From Bacteroidota bacterium (GTDB taxonomy: Bacteria > Bacteroidota > Bacteroidia > M30B66), in assembly GCA_027483445.1 (NCBI GenBank), contig JAIXUS010000064.1, forward strand, positions 1-64,000: a DNA stretch of 64,000 nucleotides, read 5' to 3'. Shown here piece after piece: positions 1,196-18,852 of the stretch. Numbering within the stretch: position 1 is the first letter of the stretch; every line of letters begins with the position of its first letter. Under the pieces are notes generated by a model. It worked only from the letters and a program-made list of their open reading frames with translations, did no database searches and was not told where the DNA came from. Made by a program: the position numbers and the translations under genes.

Positions 1196-2224
1196 TTAAC
1201 GTAACCGCACCGATTTACCGAAGGCTGAGGCATCGCCGCGGTAGCGAATGCTCAATTCGAACCCTCCGCGCCCATTGGTGGCCGGACGTAAGGTGCTTAA
1301 ATTGGCGTCGTAGCTAAACCCAAAACCCCAGGGGCCAAGCTCGATCAGCGACGACACTATAACGGCATCATTCCAACGGTAAAAGGCTCCTAAATAAACA
1401 CCCACATTTTCGAACGCGCCCGAATATTTCGACTCCGACAGTACATCGTACCTTAGCATGCTTCCGAACAAAACTTGCCGGTTGGGTCCTTGAAAATAGG
1501 CAACCCAGCCGGGATTTAAGGCCAGTTTACTATTGGGTAAGCTCACCAGAAAGTGCCCATGGAAAACCCAACGGGTCATCAGGCGCTCGCCGGTATTGTT
1601 AAACGAATAATTGGGGCGGTTAAAATGGTACATCGACACGCCCACATGGCCTCTGTTGTAGTTGTTGCCCTGCACCCTGTTACGCCCCGAATTGTTGTCG
1701 TACGACCACAAAAGGCCTCCCGAAAAGTCGGGATATAAAAAGCTTGGGTTTCCGATAAGCTCGCCCGAAGCCACCTGCCCGTTAAAACCGGTTTCGGTGT
1801 ATTGACTGCCCCATTGAAGGTCGCCAAAATCAATTCGCCGTTGCCCGAGACCTCCTTGTAAGCCGAGGCCAAGCCTGTGGTATTTGCTGATGTTCACGTG
1901 GGCTGCCAGCGTTAAATTGATAACGGTGGTGCGCAAAAGTCCGTCGCCACTTTGGTCGTAATACATTTGCAGCCCACCTGCCAGAAAGTTTCGCTGCTTT
2001 TTTGTTCCAAACCGGCTGTGGGCTTGAAAAGCATAGGTCTGATACGGTATGGTGATGCTCCTCCACTGCGACCGATAATTGAGGCTGGCTTCCGATCGGC
2101 CGGAAATGCCCGCCAGGGCCGGGTTCTGGCTCAGGGGCGCCATGAAAAACTGCGAAAAGTGAATGTCCTGTGCTTTCGTAAAAGCAGAGAGGCATACCAG
2201 CAGGAGTATCAGTCTTGTTTTCAT
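1196..2224 (-). CDS. PorP/SprF family type IX secretion-associated outer-membrane protein
   Basis: 342-aa protein with signal peptide (MKTRLILLLVCLSAFTKAQ) followed by the family hallmark DIHFSQFFMAPLSQNPALAGISG and NYRSQWRSI. The rest alternates aromatic and polar residues like a beta-barrel and ends in RYRGDASAFGKSVRLR. In Flavobacteria, SprF/PorP proteins help a partner T9SS adhesin, usually encoded just upstream, to reach or anchor at the surface. Here the partner is the type B sorting-domain protein whose stop codon is only 2 bp upstream. An ATG further upstream (2350) is in frame but would overlap that neighbour by 120 bp and has no signal peptide, so I chose 2224. Confidence 0.9.
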   Translation of the reverse strand: MKTRLILLLVCLSAFTKAQDIHFSQFFMAPLSQNPALAGISGRSEASLNYRSQWRSITIPYQTYAFQAHSRFGTKKQRNFLAGGLQMYYDQSGDGLLRTTVINLTLAAHVNISKYHRLGLGLQGGLGQRRIDFGDLQWGSQYTETGFNGQVASGELIGNPSFLYPDFSGGLLWSYDNNSGRNRVQGNNYNRGHVGVSMYHFNRPNYSFNNTGERLMTRWVFHGHFLVSLPNSKLALNPGWVAYFQGPNRQVLFGSMLRYDVLSESKYSGAFENVGVYLGAFYRWNDAVIVSSLIELGPWGFGFSYDANLSTLRPATNGRGGFELSIRYRGDASAFGKSVRLR

Positions 2225-2226
2225 GG

Positions 2227-4329
2227 TTAGCGAATGAGGGTTAAATTGCCTTGTCGGCTGAGGCTTTCGCCGGTAATGAGTTGAGCTTCGAGATAAAACA
2301 CGTACACACCGGTGTTTAAGGCCTGACCTCTGAATTGGCCATCCCAACAATCGCCCGGATTCCTGCTTTCATACACCTTCTCGCCCCAGCGGTTAAACAC
2401 CGATAAGGTCATGGTACTCACACAGCTTGCGCCGTAGAGCCTGAAACAGTTGTTCTCGCTGTGGCCCGATTCGTCGGGAGCGAAAACGTTGGGTACAAAC
2501 AAGCCTGCACAAAGGGTATCTACCGTAATTTCTACGCAATCGCTGGCCATGCAGCCGTAGGTGTTCACGGCAGTAAGGCAGTAGGTTTGACTTTGTGGTG
2601 TGTTCGACAGTGGATCGAGACAGTCGATGCAGCTTAGAAACTGGGTGGGTTGCCAAAGCACTTCGGCATTGGCGCTGGCTTGCAGATTGGCCGTTCCACC
2701 AAAATAAATCGTGGTGTCGGCCCCGGCATCGACCACCGGCAAAGGCCTCACCAATACTGCCACTTGCGCGGTGTCGGAACAGGCGCCGTTGGATACATTT
2801 ACCGAAACAAAACTGCTTCCGCCGGGCATGTATTGAAGGGTATCGTTTGCCGTACCGTCGCTCCAAACATAAGTGCCTCCTCCTCCGGCAATCAGGGTGA
2901 GGGTTTCGCCCTGGCATAGCGTGGTGTCGCCACTGATGCTCGCCACCACCTCGGGCAGCACGCTCAAGTTAGCCGAAGTGCTGCTTTGGCAGGGCCCCGT
3001 GCTCGCCAGGAGCTGGAGGGTAATTGAGCTGTCGGCCGGCAGCCAGAAGCTTTCACAGGTGTCGCAGGGCAAACCGCTGTTTACCCACAAATAGCTTTCG
3101 GCTCCGCTAACACTCACCAGTACGCTGTCGCCTCCACATACCGGGTTTTGGCTTAAGGTAATTTGGGCTTGTGGGGATGGCAAAACGGTAACCGTTACCG
3201 TGTCCGAATCGCTGCAAGCTCCCGTAAATCCTACAACAACATAATTGGTGCTTTGGGTGGGCGATGCCATCACGGTACTTGTGGTGGAGTCGCTCAAACT
3301 GCCGGCCGGCGACCAGAAGAAGTTCTCCGCGCCCTGAACGCTGAGCGCGATGCTTTGTCCGCCGCAAATGCTGGAATCTGGGCTCAAGGTCAAACTGATG
3401 GGCTGATCCACATCCAGCGTAACCACCACCACCGAATCGCAACCGCCGGCACCGGGCAATGTATCGGTATAAACACCGGGATTGCTCACCACTTCGCCCC
3501 AGGGCAAGGTAAACTGATCTCCGGCGCAAAACCGAAGGCTCAGGTTGCTTTGCAGTGTTGGTATGAGGCTAATTGTTGTGGTGATGACCGAGTCGCAGCC
3601 TGTGGCCGAACTTAAGGTTACCGGATACACGCCGGCCACATTCACTACAACGCCATTGGCTAAGGTGTACGATGAACCTTCACAAATACTCACACTTTGG
3701 TTCACCGAAATTTGAGGCAATACACTCAAATTGAGGGTCACCACCGAGTCGCAACCACTCACCGTGCTCAGCGTAAGGGTGTAAGTGCCGGCCGAGGTAT
3801 AACTGCTTCCATTCCAGCTGTAAGGCAGCTGCGCCGGGCAAACCGACACATTTTCGGTCGCGCTCAGGTTGGGCAGCACACTCAAATTGAGGGTCACCAC
3901 CGAGTCGCAACCACCGGCTGTGCTCAGCGTAACGGTGTAATTGCCGGCCGAGGAATAACTGTTTCCATTCCAGCTGTAAGGCAGCTGCGCCGGACAAACC
4001 GACACATTTTCGGTCGCACTCAGGTTGGGCAGAATGGCGATCCACAGTAAAACAGGGTCTCCTGCGCAGCCTTCACTACTCGTTTCCGTTACCTGAAGCT
4101 GGTAAAGCCCCGGTACGGTGGTCCATTGAATTTGAGTGGAATCGTTGCCCTGACCGCTCAACACCGTTCCATTGCCTTGTGTATTCCACAAAAATGTACT
4201 TCCCGCCATACCCACCACGTGGTAATTCCCCACGGTATTGCCCACGCAAAGGCTGTCGGTTTGGGCACTTAGGCTCAAACCGAAGCCCTGCAGCAGGACA
4301 ATCAGGAGAAATGTGTGTAGGCGGTTCAC
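2227..4329 (-). CDS. Secreted adhesin-like protein with gliding-motility type (type B) C-terminal sorting domain
   Basis: 700 aa. Signal peptide about 1-22 (LLIVLLQGFGLSLSAQ). The body is a row of PKD/Ig-like modules. Two neighbouring ones, at about residues 100-210, are near-identical (SATENVSVCPAQLPYSWNG ... AGGCDSVVTLNLSVLP), pointing to recent duplication. Each module carries a conserved Cys-Asp-Ser motif. The C-terminus (NVFAPDESGHSENNCFRLYG ... FNRWGEKVYES ... WDGQFRGQALNTGVYVFYLEA) is a CHU_C/gliding-motility-associated domain, the T9SS type B signal. It lies directly upstream of the PorP/SprF gene, the usual pairing for this sorting class, and 15 bp after the repeat protein. Likely a cell-surface adhesin; its ligand is unknown. 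Confidence 0.85.
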   Translation of the reverse strand: MNRLHTFLLIVLLQGFGLSLSAQTDSLCVGNTVGNYHVVGMAGSTFLWNTQGNGTVLSGQGNDSTQIQWTTVPGLYQLQVTETSSEGCAGDPVLLWIAILPNLSATENVSVCPAQLPYSWNGNSYSSAGNYTVTLSTAGGCDSVVTLNLSVLPNLSATENVSVCPAQLPYSWNGSSYTSAGTYTLTLSTVSGCDSVVTLNLSVLPQISVNQSVSICEGSSYTLANGVVVNVAGVYPVTLSSATGCDSVITTTISLIPTLQSNLSLRFCAGDQFTLPWGEVVSNPGVYTDTLPGAGGCDSVVVVTLDVDQPISLTLSPDSSICGGQSIALSVQGAENFFWSPAGSLSDSTTSTVMASPTQSTNYVVVGFTGACSDSDTVTVTVLPSPQAQITLSQNPVCGGDSVLVSVSGAESYLWVNSGLPCDTCESFWLPADSSITLQLLASTGPCQSSTSANLSVLPEVVASISGDTTLCQGETLTLIAGGGGTYVWSDGTANDTLQYMPGGSSFVSVNVSNGACSDTAQVAVLVRPLPVVDAGADTTIYFGGTANLQASANAEVLWQPTQFLSCIDCLDPLSNTPQSQTYCLTAVNTYGCMASDCVEITVDTLCAGLFVPNVFAPDESGHSENNCFRLYGASCVSTMTLSVFNRWGEKVYESRNPGDCWDGQFRGQALNTGVYVFYLEAQLITGESLSRQGNLTLIR

Positions 4330-4344
4330 CGTTGGCTCAAGGCA

Positions 4345-7122
4345 TTAATCGTGGAAAATAGGCGATGTACTGGGTCTTGGATTTACCGTTACCTGCACCG
4401 TGTTGCTTGCCTGGCAGCCATTTCCGTCGGTTCCGGTTACGGTGTAAGTGATGGTGCTGCCTGGGTTTGCAGTAACTGTTGCACCTACGGTGGATGACAA
4501 TCCGCTACCCGGAGACCAAACGTAACTACTTGCACCTGAGGTGTTCAGTGTAGTGTTGTCGCCTTCGCAGATGCTCACGTTGGCACTGGCATTTACGGTT
4601 GGAAGTGGATTTTCGGTAAGCGTAACGGCCGCTCGGGTTGAGCTCACGCAGTTGGTAAGGTTATCAACGGCCTCCGCATAATAAGTACCCGGCGCGGTGG
4701 GCACAAAACTGGTTCCGCTGCCCAGCAAGTTTCCACCGCTTGGCGCATCATACCAGTTGATGGTAATTCCCCCACCCACACTGGCGGTAAGGGCCGGAAT
4801 CGGACTGCTGCCCGCACAGTATGAAGCGCCGGTTCCAATTGGAGGAGCTACAGGCGGACAGTTGCAGTTCGGGGCATTTACGCTGAGCGTATTGCTACAG
4901 CTACCGTCATCCACCGTTAAGGTGATATTACTACCCGCCGGAACACCACTCACCGTCCAGTTGTTTCCACCTGAATTGGTGGCCGTACCGGCTGATGTGC
5001 TTAGGGTTCCTGCGCTTACCGTAACATTCACCGACCAGGTTAACAAGTCGGGCGCGCAGCTCGCCGATCCGTTCAGGCTAATGCTTGGCAAGGGATTGAC
5101 CGTAATGGTGAGGCTGGCCGTGCTTGCACACTGTCCTGCCGATGGCGTAAACGTGTAAGTGGTGGTGGCGGTGTTGTTGAGCGCCGGGCTCCACGTACCG
5201 GTGATGCCATTTGTAGAAGTAAGTGGCAGGGCAGCTAAGCTTGCACCTGAGCAGATGGCTGCTATAGGCGTGAATGTGGGCGTTACCGGAGCATTAACCG
5301 TAATGGTGAGGCTTGCTGTGGTGGCGCATTGCCCGCCCGATGGGGTAAATGTGTAGGTTGTAGTGGCTAAGTTGTTGATGGCCGGCGACCATGTTCCGCT
5401 AAAGCCATTGTTCGAGGTGAGCGGTAAAGTGGCCAATGGTGCGCCCTCGCAAATCGCAGCCACAGGATCGAAGCTTGGAGTTTGAGGCGCATTGACCGTA
5501 ATGGTGAGGGTGGTGGTGCTTGCGCACTGACCGGCATTGGGTGTAAAGGTGTAAGTGGTTGTGGCCGTATTGTTTAGCGCCGGACTCCAGCTTCCTGTAA
5601 TGCCGTTGTTCGAGGTAGTGGGCAAGGCCGCGAGGCTGCCACCGGAACAAATTGGCGCCACCGCATCGAAGCTTGGCACCGTAGACGAATTCACAGTAAC
5701 ACTCAAACTGCCTGCAGCAGCACATTGATTGGCATCGGGCGTAAAGGTGTACACGGTGTTGCCTGCTGCAGCAGTGTTAATCGTTGCAGGACTCCAGGTT
5801 CCGGTTGCGCCTTCCAACGAGCTCGCAGGCAGCGAAGGTGCCGGATCGCCTACACACAATGCCGGAATTGCATTGAAGCTCGAGGTGTTGGGTGCTGTAA
5901 TGTTGATGCTGAAAGTAATCGGTAAGGCACACTGTCCGGGGTCGGGCGTAAACGTGTAGTTTGTAGAACCCACAGAAGCTGTACTTATCACTGCCGGGCT
6001 CCAGGTACCGGTAAAGCCTTGTAGCGGAGCAGCCGGTAGTGCGGGTGGAGTCGTGCCTTGACAAAGCGATGCCGGGATTCCCACAAACGATGGATTTTGA
6101 GAAGCCGGATTCACGGTTATGCTGGTAGAAAGTGGCAGGGCGCACTGACCAGGATCAGGAGTAAAGGTGTAGATTGTTGTGCCCGAAGTTGCTGTATTCA
6201 CTGTATTTGATGGGCTCCAGCTTCCGGTAAAGCCCTGTTGTGAGCTCGACGGCAAAACCGGTGCACTTGCTCCAATGCAGAGCGTGGTAGGAAGACCAAC
6301 AAACAAGGGGTTTTGTGTTGCCGGGTTGATCGTCACATTGAGGTTAACCGGCGAAGCGCACTGTCCGGGATTGGGTGTGAATGTGTAAGCAGTGGTTCCG
6401 GCAGTTGCCGTGTTTACAGTGGAAGGACTCCAAGTTCCGCTAATTCCATTTACTGAAGTGCCGGGCAAGGTTGGGGCTGCTGCTCCAACACACACAGGCG
6501 TAATGGCCGTAAATGTGGGAACAATGGTGTTGGTAATCACAACAGAGATTGTAGCCGGATTCGCACACTGTCCGGCATCGGGCGTGAAGGTGTAGTTAAA
6601 GCTTCCCGGGGCTGCCGTATTGATGGTTGAAGGCGACCACGTGCCGGTAATGCCTTCTATTGAGCTCAAAGGGAGCGCAGGAGGAGTACTTCCCGAACAC
6701 AAAGGCCCGATGGGTGCAAATGTGGGGGTTTCGAGCGGTGTAATCTGAATTTGCAGCTCTACCGCTGTACCCTGGCATCCATCGGCGGAGGTTTCTATCA
6801 CCTGCAAGGTGTAGTTGCCCGGCGGCGAAGCACCCCAGTCGATCTGCACCCGATTGGTGCTTCCCAAAGGCGCTGTCCACGCCACCACAGGCCCTTGATT
6901 GGGCGTAATGGTTCCGGCGAAAGGTCCCGCAGTAACCGACCATGCATACGTGGAGCCTGTAGAGCCGCCTCCACTGTTTTCTCCGGGATCGACCCGGTAA
7001 AACTTAATGTCGCCCTCGCAAATGACATCCGGCTGGGCCGAATTGTTTTCCTGAGCGCGCAACTGGGGTAAGAGGAAAATCCCCATCACCATCCAAATTA
7101 ACCATACGTAGCGTTTCTTCAT
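4345..7122 (-). CDS. Secreted protein with eight tandem ~68-aa repeats
   Basis: 925 aa starting at MKKRYVWLIWMVMGIFLLPQ with a clear signal peptide; the earlier in-frame ATG at 7206 would overlap the upstream gene and lacks one. Residues about 140-660 hold eight copies of a module with the pattern PxF...CxG...LP..S..G.TGxWSP...NTA....YTFTP..GQCA....ITVN; modules 6-8 are most alike. Two further Ig-like domains follow. It ends PRPSTSPIFHD and has neither a type A nor a type B T9SS sorting domain. The upstream protein ends with a ninth copy of the same module and a nearly identical tail (GTGTILHD). Probably part of a surface complex with its operon neighbours (inference). Confidence 0.8.
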   Translation of the reverse strand: MKKRYVWLIWMVMGIFLLPQLRAQENNSAQPDVICEGDIKFYRVDPGENSGGGSTGSTYAWSVTAGPFAGTITPNQGPVVAWTAPLGSTNRVQIDWGASPPGNYTLQVIETSADGCQGTAVELQIQITPLETPTFAPIGPLCSGSTPPALPLSSIEGITGTWSPSTINTAAPGSFNYTFTPDAGQCANPATISVVITNTIVPTFTAITPVCVGAAAPTLPGTSVNGISGTWSPSTVNTATAGTTAYTFTPNPGQCASPVNLNVTINPATQNPLFVGLPTTLCIGASAPVLPSSSQQGFTGSWSPSNTVNTATSGTTIYTFTPDPGQCALPLSTSITVNPASQNPSFVGIPASLCQGTTPPALPAAPLQGFTGTWSPAVISTASVGSTNYTFTPDPGQCALPITFSINITAPNTSSFNAIPALCVGDPAPSLPASSLEGATGTWSPATINTAAAGNTVYTFTPDANQCAAAGSLSVTVNSSTVPSFDAVAPICSGGSLAALPTTSNNGITGSWSPALNNTATTTYTFTPNAGQCASTTTLTITVNAPQTPSFDPVAAICEGAPLATLPLTSNNGFSGTWSPAINNLATTTYTFTPSGGQCATTASLTITVNAPVTPTFTPIAAICSGASLAALPLTSTNGITGTWSPALNNTATTTYTFTPSAGQCASTASLTITVNPLPSISLNGSASCAPDLLTWSVNVTVSAGTLSTSAGTATNSGGNNWTVSGVPAGSNITLTVDDGSCSNTLSVNAPNCNCPPVAPPIGTGASYCAGSSPIPALTASVGGGITINWYDAPSGGNLLGSGTSFVPTAPGTYYAEAVDNLTNCVSSTRAAVTLTENPLPTVNASANVSICEGDNTTLNTSGASSYVWSPGSGLSSTVGATVTANPGSTITYTVTGTDGNGCQASNTVQVTVNPRPSTSPIFHD

Positions 7123-13526: not shown

Positions 13527-13660
13527 GAACGTTGTTAGGTGCTGCCCTTCTGTCTTTCATCCTGATTGTCTGTTGGTTGTGCGGTGAGACAGACACACTC
13601 TTTGCCAAGTTTTGGTCTGAGCGTTGGCTGGTGCGACTTGGCAATGTGTGTGGCTGTGAA
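13527..13660 (-). other. Downstream border of the defence cassette: attC-like heptamer and hairpin
   Basis: Just past the Shedu stop, the minus strand holds ACACAC...GCCAAG and CTTGGC...GTGTGT arms (plus-strand 13592-13660), then GCAGCACCTAACAACG (13531-13546). ACCTAAC fits the RYYYAAC heptamer of integron attC sites. No matching GTTAGGT partner at attC distance was found before the next gene, so at most one half site is present. The remaining sequence between 13487 and 13683 has no gene. Confidence 0.35.
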
Positions 13661-13683
13661 GCGTTGGCTTTGGTATCATTAGT

Positions 13684-14940
13684 TTATACTTTTAAAACAT
13701 TTGATTTAAAAAATTCAGTTTCTAAGTCAAACCAATCTTTAGGCAACTTGTCAGGAAACACAATATGAAATGCTCTTTCAAACAGCTCGTCATATGTTAC
13801 TATTTCAATATTTCTTGAATCCCTTCTCATTCTCTCAAAGCAGTCAGTCTTCATATCAAATTCAGAATTTCTGATGTGAGGAAATTCTTCGTTTCTGTTA
13901 CCAATTATCAAAACTGCTTTTGGGTCTAAAATTCTGTTTTTCTTAGTGTCAATTAAATTGCCGTTTTCATCTTTTATGTCTTTGTATTCTGTTATTTCAC
14001 TTCGTTGTGATAAAGCTTGGCTATATGCTTCGATAAAGTCTTCTGAAAAGTCCCAAGTATTTGCTCTTGATTTCGTAGATTTTTTCTCTTTGAAAATTTT
14101 AGTTCTACTTGTCTTTAACTCAATTAAGGTTGTAAAATAAGATATGCCTAACAAGTCCACTTCAGGACTGCCAACACCTTTTGAATCTTCATATCCTACT
14201 TTCTGTTTTGAAAGTAAATCACGAATGAACTTTATGTCAATATTTAAACCAATAATCCAATCGTTTGATTTTAAAAAATGATGCCAAATTGCTTCTTCTC
14301 CCTGTTCTTTGATTGAGTGCTTTTTTCTGTAAGATTCAAATGCCTTAACACCATCTTTATTACCGAGGTCTTTTAGAAAAGCATAAAACCAATGAATTGC
14401 ATTTCTACGATGCGGCAATAAAAGTTCTTTTATTTCTTGTTTTGATAGTCTTATTGATTCTGAGAGAGCCGTCAATTCTTTTACTTTTTCAGCCTGAACT
14501 TTTGTTTTAAAATCAACCAAGTAAGAATCAAAACTTACAGCTTGATATTTTGAATGAAAATCGCCTAAGTCAACCAACTCTTTAAATCCTTGCAGAAAGT
14601 GTATTACCTTCCAAAAAGCCCTGGCTTCATCTCCATCTGAAAATCTAATGATTACATCATTTCCTTTCGATTTACTTGGTTCACCACTATCCGTTTCCTT
14701 TCTAAACTCAAGACGAGGAAGATATTTGCCGTCTTGTTTTGACCGATAAAATGAAACTCTTAGAATGGTTATTGCATTTTTCTTTTTTATCAGAATGAAG
14801 CCACCAATAATGTTTTCTTTATCATAGACAAAGCAATTATCCTTTGAATAGTTTTCTTTAATAACCAATGTGTCAATATCACGTTCTTTGATATCGAAAA
14901 GATTCGAGAATGGATTATTTATGTTTGATGTTCTCGACAT
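13684..14940 (-). CDS. Shedu-family (DUF4263) defence nuclease
   Basis: 418 aa. Residues about 1-160 form a variable N-terminal region. Residues about 210-395 match the Shedu nuclease core: GEEAIWHHFLKSNDWIIG (Glu216/217), SPEVDLLGI (Asp262), LIELKTS (Glu274, Lys276), DFIEAYSQALSQ (Gln308), PKAVLIIGNRNEEF and RDSRNIEIVTYDELFERA. This is a PD-(D/E)xK arrangement; Shedu proteins protect against phages by nucleic-acid cleavage. The ATG overlaps the stop of the type IIG enzyme in TAATG, so the two are translated from one mRNA. Coupling of a Shedu nuclease to a type IIG enzyme suggests a joint defence unit in which methylation might mark self (inference). AT-rich compared with neighbours. Confidence 0.85.
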   Translation of the reverse strand: MSRTSNINNPFSNLFDIKERDIDTLVIKENYSKDNCFVYDKENIIGGFILIKKKNAITILRVSFYRSKQDGKYLPRLEFRKETDSGEPSKSKGNDVIIRFSDGDEARAFWKVIHFLQGFKELVDLGDFHSKYQAVSFDSYLVDFKTKVQAEKVKELTALSESIRLSKQEIKELLLPHRRNAIHWFYAFLKDLGNKDGVKAFESYRKKHSIKEQGEEAIWHHFLKSNDWIIGLNIDIKFIRDLLSKQKVGYEDSKGVGSPEVDLLGISYFTTLIELKTSRTKIFKEKKSTKSRANTWDFSEDFIEAYSQALSQRSEITEYKDIKDENGNLIDTKKNRILDPKAVLIIGNRNEEFPHIRNSEFDMKTDCFERMRRDSRNIEIVTYDELFERAFHIVFPDKLPKDWFDLETEFFKSNVLKV

Positions 14941-17900
14941 TATGCTTCAATAATTTTAATTTCTTCTTCCGTCAACTCATAAAGTTGATAAACCAATTGG
15001 TCTATTTGGTTTACTAAATCGGTGGTGTCTGCTGAGGGGTCAACTTCTTTTTTTGTTAAGATTTCATTGACCTTCATTTCAAGTTCATATGTTAATTGAT
15101 TTTTGACATTTGGAACAGCAAACTGTTGAATATCTCGAATCATAATTTGGGGGAAAGTATCTTCATCAGTTATTTGAAACTTCTTTCGGAAATACCAACC
15201 AATAAATTTTGAATTAAGTATACCTAACAATGCTTTATAACTGATTTTGGCTTTATCTTTCTTCAATTTCAAAACAAACAAAAGTGTATTGCAGTATGAA
15301 GTGTAAGAAGTGTAATTAGCAATTAAGGTTTTTCCCGTGATTTTCCGAATAAGAATTTTTTCTCCTTCATATTTTTCAGGCACTCTTGGCTCAGCTAGCC
15401 ACGGACCGTAATGTATCCAGTTATTTTCTTTCCACAATAAAGAGTAGTAACCAATATCCTTTCCATCAAAAAAAGGGAGCCATTCTTTTGTTTTTCTAAC
15501 ATTTGAAGTAAACGGTTTTGAATCTCTAATTTCAGGCGTTTGTGCGGGTTTGCCTTTCCCAACTTGATAAACTTTAATTCCGTAGAAAATTTCAGAGAAA
15601 GATTCTGCCAAAGGAAACTTTTTATCAATCCTGGAAATAATATCTAGTTCGTTTGAATTACTTTGAAGGTTAAAGCTATTAGATTCATACCAAACTTTAC
15701 TGTTGATTAAAAAACTACGAGTAGGATTTTCTAAACTTTGGATAAGATTTTTCTTCTCAAAAGCATTTACTAAAACATCTGATTTATTGTAATCTTCATT
15801 TGAAATTTCTTTTTGGAAGAATAACAAAATCGTATCAACAGTAGCATCTGTAAATACATTTGAAGGTAGTAAAGTCAATTCGTAAACTTTTGTGTTTTTC
15901 AACACATACCTTCGTGTTGCATCTGTAAATCCGAGATTAAGTATTGTGTCAGGAATGATAAAACTAAAGTGTCCAGCTTTATTCAACACCGTAATTGCTC
16001 GTTCTATAAACAAGGTATAGCTTTCCCCACGCAGATTAAATGTGTCAAATAAATTACCATAAAACTTTCCATTTTCCTTATTAAAGTTCACACCATAAGG
16101 CGGATTTCCTATAACCACATCAAAGCCCACGAAATCGCCATCATCATTCAACACTTCGGGAAATTCAAAACGCCATTCAAAAGCGTTTTCAAAAATCTTG
16201 TTGGCTTTTATTTCTTCAATTTTGGAATTTAAAAGTTCAATTTCTTTTTCCAGTTTGGTTTGTGCTGCTTTACGTTTTTTGTTTAAATCTTTTTCTTCTT
16301 TTCCATATGGTGTATCAGGTTCGAATAAAAATGTGCCAGTAAAACGATGGTACAATTCATTAGCAAGTTTATCTAAACGTTTTTTAAGTGGGTCGTTCAT
16401 TCTAATTTCACTAGAAAAACTTTGCTTGATTTCAAGAATTAGTTTTTCCATTGCTCGCTTTTGCTCCTTATTCTTAGCATTTCGATAAGTAGACACAGCA
16501 TCACGATAGCTATCAATCGTCCACTTACTTTTTTTCAAGGCTTGTTTCAGGTCTGCATCAATGGCAAAACGGCTCACTAAAGAGTTTCCGCATTTTATGT
16601 TGATGTCAATATTCGGTAGGGTTTCAAGTTCTGTGCTGTTTTTGTAGTAAGCATTTTTCAAAAGCTCAATCCATAAACGCAAACGACAAATATTTACCGA
16701 ATTGGAATTGATGTCCACACCGAAAAGGCAGTTTTCAATAATGGTTTGCTTTTCGTGGAATAGCGTTTCCTGTATGCGTTGGCTTTCTTTGTTGCTAGGG
16801 TTGTATTCAAAAAGTTCTCCTTCTTCGTCTGTTACAATCAGTTCATCATTCACCACTTCTACCTGATATTCTTTAAGGCGTTTGCCGTCACGGTCTTGCA
16901 GAATTTTTAAGTCGTTTTTAACGGCAACCATTTCATTGAGCGCCGAAACTAAAAAGTGTCCTGAACCAACGGCAGGGTCGCAAATTTTGATGCTGTTTAC
17001 AATTTTGTTGGCTTCTTTTCGGTCGTCAATTTTGTCGTAAAGTTCTTCAATGCTTGTGCAGTTCCATTTTTTTGTTTCGTTGAATTTCTGTACAACTGCT
17101 TTACGAATAGTTTCACGGCACATATACATTGTGATGAAACCGGGAGTGAAAAATGAACCGTCTTTGTAGCCGTTTATTTTCTCGAAAATTAATCCAAGAA
17201 CCGAAGCGTTAATCAGCGTTTTGTTGTCTTCTTGAATTTCTTCTCCGCCTTCTGCTCCAAAGTCGTAAGCATCTAGAAACTCAAAGAGATATTCAAGCGT
17301 GGTTAAATTTCCTGTTCGCTTTTTTCCTTGTTTGTCTTTGAGAACGGTAGAAGAAATGACTGGAATAGTTTTATCGTCTTTCAGGTTGCTGATAAACAAA
17401 GTAACCTGCTCAATGTCGGTCGGCTCGAAAAGCGAAGAATTGAGATAAGGAACTTTCTCGAAAATCTTTTTTACATCTTCGTTTCGGTCGTCATACTTGC
17501 GTGCCAACACCTGAAAAAACAAGCTGTTCAGGTCGTCATAATTCTTGATTTTGTCAAGGTTGAGAAACGAATACGATTTGTCGCCTTTGTGATAGGTGAT
17601 GAGTTGGGCTTCCAACAACTTCAAAAACAAAATGCGGTTTATCCAAGTAATCGAAAGTTCAAGAGCAACATTAAATAGTCGTTCTTGTTGGGTGTTGCCG
17701 AATTGGTTTGGTTTTTCAAGTCGGCTCAATTTATCTAAGCTGTCAAGTTGAATAATTGCATCTTCGAGAAGAGTTCCTGTGTGTCGTTCACCTGCTTTGT
17801 GTCGTTCAATCAGTTTTTTGCTTCCTTCTTTGGTTTCTGTTAAGCCGATAATGTGCAACAACTCGCTGTAAAAGCGTTTGTCAAGGCTGTTGCTGTCGTT

Positions 17901-18623
17901 GGTGAATGGAAGTTTTAAAAGATGTTCTGGCGAAAGCAGTTTGAATAGAGCAATCAGCGAATTATCGTCTGCTTTGTCGGTATTGCGTAAAGGTTTTTGA
18001 AAATCCTGAATGTTGAAGTAAGTAAACTCAATTTCAGAAGTGATGCTGTCAATAAATGGTTCGGCAACTTGCTTGTAGAAAAAGTCAGTTTTGGTGTCTG
18101 CCAAACGACCTGCTTCAAAGTCGTTGAATTGCTTTACAAGATTTTTGTTTTGTGCAAAAAGTCTGTCGAATAGGGTAGCGTCAAAAATGAACCATTCGTT
18201 AATGTTGGTCGCCACCAAATGTTTTACTTCAAGGTTTTTGTGTGTAATTCTCTCTCGTAAATAATACAATACCAATTCCTGAAATGCTTTTGCATTCAGT
18301 TTTTTGGTTGTAATCATTTCCGATTTGTTGGTTGGTTTTTTCGCTTCGAGAATTACGCCAACTGTCGAGTTCGCATTTTGTCCGTTATGAATAACAAGGT
18401 CGTTTCGACCTTTGGTATTTATAAAATGGTTTGGGTCGTAATAGGTTTTCTTTAAAAAGTCAATTACAAGGTTTTTATGAAATTCTTCGCTTTCGGTGTC
18501 ATTTGTCCTGTCGAGTAAAGTAATGAGATTGGTCTTGAAACCTTCAATTTCAGTCCTGTTCGGTTTTACTTTTAAAAAGGCTTTGTTTAGTGCCTTTCTG
18601 GGTTTCAATTCTTTTAATTCCAT
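14940..18623 (-). CDS. Type IIG (Eco57I-like) restriction endonuclease/adenine methyltransferase
   Basis: 1227 aa in one chain. N-terminal PD-(D/E)xK nuclease: GRNDLVIHN with Asp75 and VILEAKKP with Glu93/Lys95. Residues about 440-900 are the gamma-class N6-adenine methyltransferase: SAM motif DPAVGSGHF near 546 and catalytic NPPYG near 839, with FNLRGESYTLFIERAITVL following. Residues about 1000-1190 look like a TaqI-like target-recognition domain (WLPFFDGKDIGYY ... RKITGKTLIANYTSY ... LLGILNSKFIGWYFRKKF). The length fits type IIG enzymes that cut and methylate with one polypeptide. It is the first gene of the cassette, followed with a 1-bp overlap by Shedu. Low GC and border hairpins suggest horizontal transfer. 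All key motifs are intact. Confidence 0.9.
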   Translation of the reverse strand: MELKELKPRKALNKAFLKVKPNRTEIEGFKTNLITLLDRTNDTESEEFHKNLVIDFLKKTYYDPNHFINTKGRNDLVIHNGQNANSTVGVILEAKKPTNKSEMITTKKLNAKAFQELVLYYLRERITHKNLEVKHLVATNINEWFIFDATLFDRLFAQNKNLVKQFNDFEAGRLADTKTDFFYKQVAEPFIDSITSEIEFTYFNIQDFQKPLRNTDKADDNSLIALFKLLSPEHLLKLPFTNDSNSLDKRFYSELLHIIGLTETKEGSKKLIERHKAGERHTGTLLEDAIIQLDSLDKLSRLEKPNQFGNTQQERLFNVALELSITWINRILFLKLLEAQLITYHKGDKSYSFLNLDKIKNYDDLNSLFFQVLARKYDDRNEDVKKIFEKVPYLNSSLFEPTDIEQVTLFISNLKDDKTIPVISSTVLKDKQGKKRTGNLTTLEYLFEFLDAYDFGAEGGEEIQEDNKTLINASVLGLIFEKINGYKDGSFFTPGFITMYMCRETIRKAVVQKFNETKKWNCTSIEELYDKIDDRKEANKIVNSIKICDPAVGSGHFLVSALNEMVAVKNDLKILQDRDGKRLKEYQVEVVNDELIVTDEEGELFEYNPSNKESQRIQETLFHEKQTIIENCLFGVDINSNSVNICRLRLWIELLKNAYYKNSTELETLPNIDINIKCGNSLVSRFAIDADLKQALKKSKWTIDSYRDAVSTYRNAKNKEQKRAMEKLILEIKQSFSSEIRMNDPLKKRLDKLANELYHRFTGTFLFEPDTPYGKEEKDLNKKRKAAQTKLEKEIELLNSKIEEIKANKIFENAFEWRFEFPEVLNDDGDFVGFDVVIGNPPYGVNFNKENGKFYGNLFDTFNLRGESYTLFIERAITVLNKAGHFSFIIPDTILNLGFTDATRRYVLKNTKVYELTLLPSNVFTDATVDTILLFFQKEISNEDYNKSDVLVNAFEKKNLIQSLENPTRSFLINSKVWYESNSFNLQSNSNELDIISRIDKKFPLAESFSEIFYGIKVYQVGKGKPAQTPEIRDSKPFTSNVRKTKEWLPFFDGKDIGYYSLLWKENNWIHYGPWLAEPRVPEKYEGEKILIRKITGKTLIANYTSYTSYCNTLLFVLKLKKDKAKISYKALLGILNSKFIGWYFRKKFQITDEDTFPQIMIRDIQQFAVPNVKNQLTYELEMKVNEILTKKEVDPSADTTDLVNQIDQLVYQLYELTEEEIKIIEA

Positions 18624-18698
18624 CTACAATTTTATATTCTTTTTTCAGTCGGTTAAGATAAGTTTTAATGTCGAAACGATGTCAGTGCGTTGGTAAAA

Positions 18699-18764
18699 AA
18701 AATGGCTCTTTTGGTTTTGCGAAGGGATGGCTTGTGTGTCGGGCAAAACCAAATGTGCCATTTT
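18699..18764. repeat. Long inverted repeat upstream of the restriction gene
   Basis: Two 22-base arms (18699-18720 and 18743-18764) match at 20 of 22 positions when one is reverse-complemented; the loop is 22 bases. The arms include TGGTTTTGC/GCAAAACCA. It lies in the cassette leader between the attC-like border (about 18830-18850) and the ATG at 18623. Such a strong hairpin could be an attC-like folded site, a transcript-control element or a MITE remnant. Confidence 0.8.
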
Positions 18765-18824
18765 GTGCGGTTGGCTTTTCGGGTCGTTTTTCTGTCGGTT
18801 TGATGTTGCTCTGTCGGTCGCCAT

Positions 18825-18852
18825 AGGGTTGCAGCTAACTAGCCAACATGCG
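18825..18852 (-). other. Upstream border of the defence cassette: attC-like heptamer
   Basis: On the minus strand CGCATGTTGGCTAGTTAGCTGC precedes the cassette leader; read in two parts, CGCATGTTGG and GTTAGCTGC. GTTAGCT is one base away from the attC GTTRRRY consensus, and the following TGC is common in attC ends. Its position before the first gene, with RYYYAAC after the last, is the order expected for an integron cassette. A complete folded attC could not be reconstructed. Confidence 0.3.

Follow-up and report, generated by a model that had tools for sequence, protein, structure and literature searches.

The analysed window, a 64,000-nt stretch of a Bacteroidota contig, carries on its minus strand two overlapping open reading frames running from 18623 to 13684, which encode a 1227-aa type IIG restriction-modification enzyme followed by a 418-aa Shedu nuclease (Table 1). 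The stop codon TAA of the IIG gene and the ATG of the Shedu gene share one base, in agreement with the overlap read in the initial annotation, and we infer that translational coupling may link Shedu synthesis to that of the IIG enzyme. The unit forms a GC-poor island, with a GC content of 0.353 compared to 0.496 and 0.489 in the flanks.

Table 1. Features of the IIG-Shedu unit; positions refer to the 64,000-nt window.
Feature	Position	Strand	Description
Constant block 3: right end with hairpin	13530..13680	-	78-87% nt identity where most of the length aligned; ends ACCTAAC (13534-13540), attC R''-like core
Variable block 2: cargo slot, Shedu here	13681..14940	-	no alignment to cassettes in other families
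Shedu nuclease SduA, 418 aa	13684..14940	-	predicted catalytic D262, E274, K276, Q308
TAATG stop/start overlap	14938..14942	-	junction reads GAAGCATAATGTCG
Type IIG restriction-modification enzyme, 1227 aa	14940..18623	-	intact ORF; DUF7149 nuclease, DUF7814, Eco57I-type N6 methylase, TaqI_C specificity domain
Constant block 2: IIG C-terminal tail	14943..15064	-	80-92% nt identity in the same other-family copies (up to this span)
Variable block 1: specificity (TRD) region	15065..16094	-	unrelated between close relatives
Constant block 1: left end and IIG core up to methylase motif IV	16095..18842	-	~82-87% nt identity, local pieces 75-90%, to cassettes in other families
Left end with hairpin	18624..18838	-	cassette-type boundary G/TTAGCTGC at 18839/18838

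Both proteins had been named in the initial annotation, with active-site motifs read as intact, and database comparisons bear this out. The IIG protein matches DUF7149 (1e-104), DUF7814 (3e-101), Eco57I (6e-28) and TaqI_C (4e-18), as well as the PADLOC REase_MTase_IIG model (1e-251), and its motifs NDLVI (position 74), ILEAKKP (91), DPAVGSGHF (549) and NPPYG (840) have key residues that are kept across the alignment of relatives. Nuclease, N6 methylase and specificity domain are thus joined in one chain, as in known type IIG enzymes. The core is distantly PglX-like; with a PglX score of 92 bits against a cut-off of 500, and no PglZ or BrxC gene seen on reading the ORFs around the unit, it does not qualify as BREX. 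The second protein matches SduA_C at 7.2e-21 and PADLOC SduA at 1e-50, the latter model (PDLC00391) spanning residues 13-394. Its four predicted catalytic residues align with those of the solved SduA structures 8ti8 and 8ti9 (the E being replaced by A in 8ti9) and make up the D...ExK...Q signature of the SduA_C/DUF4263 nuclease domain. It shares with described Shedu proteins this C-terminal PD-(D/E)xK domain, the catalytic residues of which are conserved. Its N-terminal part, where Shedu proteins have a variable sensor domain, is probably of this kind; the AlphaFold model, with a pLDDT of 48.5, is too poor to class it. Whereas Shedu has been described as a single-gene system, the window Shedu, present in one copy in the source genome, is the second cistron of the IIG unit and overlaps the IIG stop, a feature of context and not of sequence.

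A scan for close Shedu relatives returned eight loci (L002-L009). The same IIG-Shedu pair recurs, with a 4-bp overlap, in L002 and L003, which belong to other Bacteroidota lineages; the pairing is therefore not due to chance and extends beyond the source lineage. In L003, the IIG gene of the Shedu-bearing copy is read in two frames (1525-5148), reflecting either decay or an assembly error. The Shedu proteins of L005 and L006, 77 and 74% identical to that of the window, stand alone without an IIG gene; the genes beside them read as catalase-peroxidase-like in one case and short-chain dehydrogenase-like in the other. L008 and L009 also hold Shedu relatives without IIG, and contig ends interrupt the loci L004 and L007. 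The upstream side can be read for four of the homologues sharing 74-84% identity, and two of these four are stand-alone. The window Shedu is closer to its IIG-coupled relatives (83%) than to the stand-alone ones (74-77%).

The enzymes of these pairs differ in the part that reads the target. L002 and L003 are 95% identical in Shedu and 93% in the IIG core, but 28% in the specificity domain; over the three Shedu-bearing IIGs, the specificity domains are 22-29% identical, i.e. unrelated, while the Shedu proteins are 83-95% identical. This argues against a Shedu that reads one particular methylation mark, and the initial suggestion that Shedu responds to the methylation state set by its IIG partner is unlikely; we have set it aside. 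An AU test moreover rejects a single clade for the three Shedu-bearing IIGs (p-AU = 0.0195), although, as the IIG core may itself recombine, this does not prove a single swap event.

At the DNA level, the unit alternates between constant and variable segments with sharp borders: a constant core is followed by a specificity domain that varies, a constant tail, a cargo that again varies and a constant right end (Table 1). IIG residues 1-700 are 91-95% identical to those of eight relatives, compared to 20-28% for residues 861-1000 where these are comparable. The enzymes sharing 91-95% of these 700 residues, found in other families, are followed by a different coupled gene or by none. In three cargo-free copies (L072, L106 and L118), the right end lies directly or within ~20 bp 3' of the IIG stop, and in two others (L107 and L129) it comes after the cargo. 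In the core tree, the window falls in an 11-row clade (100/95) in which some rows have no cargo and the others carry Shedu, an ATPase, a membrane protein or an unknown protein, L002 and L003 being placed elsewhere, next to an OLD-type row.

IIG relatives are common: they occur in 38 of 395 genomes sampled across the phylum (E ≤ 1e-30) and in 33 of 395 sampled across the class (E ≤ 1e-100). Among the loci fetched, only the window has a window-type Shedu downstream. Flanks were taken for 60 IIG relatives; together with the window, L002 and L003, 61 loci had enough downstream sequence, and we counted as tight any same-strand ORF of ≥ 90 aa starting -25 to +45 bp from the IIG stop. Such a gene follows 33 of the 61 IIGs, with a 4-bp overlap in 11 of the 33, and is missing from 28, which counts against an exchangeable slot. 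Upstream, an ORF ending as close was found in 5 of 59 cases, one of them being L003's own broken IIG. The bias is strong (Fisher p 5e-8, on related genomes and mechanical gene calls) and, as it concerns only the downstream side and comes with overlapping stop/start codons, it suggests selection for co-expression. Defence genes cluster in islands anyway, and part of the neighbourhood pattern is accounted for thereby.

Three of the 33 downstream ORFs start at a TTG codon and could be false calls; without two of them, the 31 remaining cargo proteins fall into 25 families (E 1e-4). Those with a name are Shedu, DUF4238, ApeA, another HEPN, SIR2 (Dsr1/ThsA-like), HNH_5, NucS_C, an REase-like protein, Bro-N, an OLD/AriA-like AAA protein, a 5'-nucleotidase and a HATPase with a weak SduA match. 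Of these, ApeA/HEPN, SIR2/Dsr1-like, HNH_5, NucS_C, OLD/AriA-like, HATPase and DUF4238 proteins are known or candidate effectors; with ~ten families lacking annotation and one 5'-nucleotidase, an effector role is not established for every cargo. L107, L110 and L129 share as cargo an unannotated protein of 225 aa (73-91% identical) whose N-terminus holds a membrane segment, and the L107 member has no Pfam or PADLOC match. Likewise without Pfam or PADLOC match is a 447-aa cargo in L112 (8781-10121), with a 4-bp overlap with its IIG gene. Among six plasmid-borne IIG relatives inspected, four (three Bacillota, one Actinomycetota) have no annotated tight downstream gene, an Enterococcus one has a downstream gene at +13, and a Bacteroides one ends at the record end; since most of them lack such a gene, the exchangeable slot may be mainly a Bacteroidota trait. 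Phage and viral collections gave no relative at the sensitivity used.

We then considered the ends of the unit. The left boundary GTTAGCT fits GTTRRRY loosely (the third R is C) and the right end finishes CACCTAAC (13534) with the core ACCTAAC, so that the unit has, within this loose fit, the G/TTRRRY-type left boundary and complementary right core of an integron cassette. In the window copy, boundary and core have one mismatch to each other; the core is AGCTAAC in L072, L106, L107 and L118. Of 395 genomes of the class, 45 contain the right end, where it mostly follows other genes. Beyond it, several loci carry ~132-nt attC-like hairpin blocks, beginning ...AAC and ending GTT.... A consensus fold of their alignment found no pairs, the arms not being aligned by structure, and the arms were thus tested directly: they pair better with their own partner than when swapped (24.6 versus 12.9), and in 9 of 12 cases no other partner scored higher, an effect whose size is inflated because the sites were partly picked for paired arms. 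Independent support for attC-like sites comes from their fixed length and from an array on contig C55 of the source genome (L203, 1883-8469), where the gene of a 593-aa tyrosine recombinase precedes a row of four attC sites alternating with three genes. This array is likely a chromosomal integron of that genome; the score of the recombinase lies below the TIGR02249 integron-integrase cut-off.

A model of the attC-like sites (R1), built on sequence only, finds 31 sites at E ≤ 0.01 in the source genome. An attC-like site was found after the IIG cassette of L072 and a partial one in L118, and none was recognisable in the window copy. Elsewhere, on contig C52 (L138, 4773-8369), a small HTH gene and, by reading, a C5-methylase/restriction gene pair lie between two attC-like sites, and on C37 (L139, 5027-9410) a 1383-aa membrane-type protein is preceded by a left-end-like hairpin and followed by an attC-like site. 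Rfam gave no match. Transposon ends with inverted repeats (GTTAGCTGC...GCAGCTAAC) had been considered and were dropped once the attC-like hairpins and the gene-attC array appeared. We call the unit cassette-derived.

Architecture, overlap, exchange and cassette-type ends can be read directly in the DNA of the window and its relatives. As both the target-reading part and the companion gene are exchanged, Shedu looks like a plug-in second defence and not like a dedicated partner. Our preferred reading, which we consider probable, is that of a mobile IIG restriction platform of integron-cassette type with an exchangeable, translationally coupled slot for an auxiliary effector, Shedu being the effector of the window copy. 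The first gene would encode a complete type IIG enzyme, constant in its core and exchangeable in its specificity domain, which as front-line restriction most likely methylates the host's DNA and cuts phage DNA that lacks the modification. The second would encode an auxiliary effector, likewise exchangeable, and its position behind the conserved tail of IIG would allow ribosomes finishing the IIG chain to start on it. Shedu would then most likely be made at a level matched to IIG, with its own N-terminal domain as trigger, and would add a second cut against phages that escape or inhibit IIG, or at DNA ends made by IIG. E. coli Shedu has been reported to bind and sense DNA ends (PMC12904381), and IIG-made ends could thus feed Shedu. 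The second-line role put forward in the initial annotation fits this scheme, in which anti-phage function, the second layer and the use of DNA ends are what we infer.

Other explanations were weighed against this platform. That the IIG and Shedu genes form a dedicated system, the methylation pattern of the enzyme licensing or targeting its own Shedu, could draw on the overlapping pair in three genomes and on the greater similarity among IIG-coupled Shedu proteins. Yet it is hard to reconcile with unrelated specificity domains beside near-identical Shedu proteins, with Shedu-bearing IIGs that do not form one clade, with near-identical IIG cores followed by other cargo and with stand-alone Shedu homologues, and we regard it as very improbable. 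The test proposed at the outset came out divided on this point: adjacent pairs do exist elsewhere, but the closest homologues of each protein also have other neighbours or none, so that the dedicated system suggested at first does not hold. A second alternative is a physical or guard link that does not depend on the target sequence. PrrC acts as a guard of EcoprrI, firing when a phage blocks restriction, and the cargo could similarly respond to the constant core of IIG, or to inhibition of that core. The core is indeed the common element ahead of all cargos, several of which are suicide-type effectors (HEPN, SIR2); family scans, however, found no domain common to the cargo families, and many IIG copies have no cargo, which makes physical or guard coupling rather unlikely.

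Conversely, the genes may have no functional link and be independent defences packed together, sharing a cassette and a promoter. Cargo diversity, the 5'-nucleotidase, stand-alone Shedu and cassettes without cargo all speak for this, and the strong downstream-only bias with its overlapping stop/start codons speaks against it; we regard this explanation as somewhat unlikely. The platform can also be extended to a modular system in which the constant nuclease-methylase core has independent slots for specificity and for a coupled effector that is activated by, or guards, the core, the whole spreading between families as integron cassettes. We propose this extension only tentatively and hold it to be doubtful.

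Several known systems resemble the unit in part. Type IIG enzymes, which cut DNA a set distance away from the site they methylate, usually figure as self-sufficient systems, and the window unit differs in having an exchangeable effector gene after the IIG. BREX and BREX-related systems have auxiliary and backup effectors, Shedu among them (PMC12839542); their logic and effector classes overlap with those seen here (PD-(D/E)xK including Shedu, HNH, OLD and HEPN), but the window unit has one core gene in place of many. VcSduA is a paraMORC3-type Shedu, with a GHKL ATPase and a Shedu nuclease, located next to a GmrSD-like enzyme (PMC12137116). The L108 cargo, a MORC-like ATPase with, by reading, a C-terminal PD...ELK motif, looks like the same type, on a weak PADLOC SduA match and motif reading only, and its direct comparison with the window Shedu was not significant; VcSduA and the GmrSD-like enzyme are nevertheless two independent systems, whereas the L108 cargo overlaps its IIG gene by 8 bp. 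Integron gene cassettes with defence genes share the left boundary and the CTAAC right core, the attC-like hairpins of the relatives and the gene-attC array beside a recombinase in the source genome. They differ in that the window unit consists of two presumably co-translated genes whose specificity domain and cargo are exchanged internally, and in that no attC was found in it.

A literature search that reached only a minority of subscription papers turned up no description of such a slot, both exchangeable and coupled, behind a single type IIG gene. If the proposed platform is correct, a single-gene restriction enzyme would carry, as the fixed element, second-line defences that change from copy to copy. 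The position of the slot could be used for finding new effectors among the unannotated cargo families, and one could test with it whether the failure of restriction is sensed by backup effectors or whether these only share its expression.
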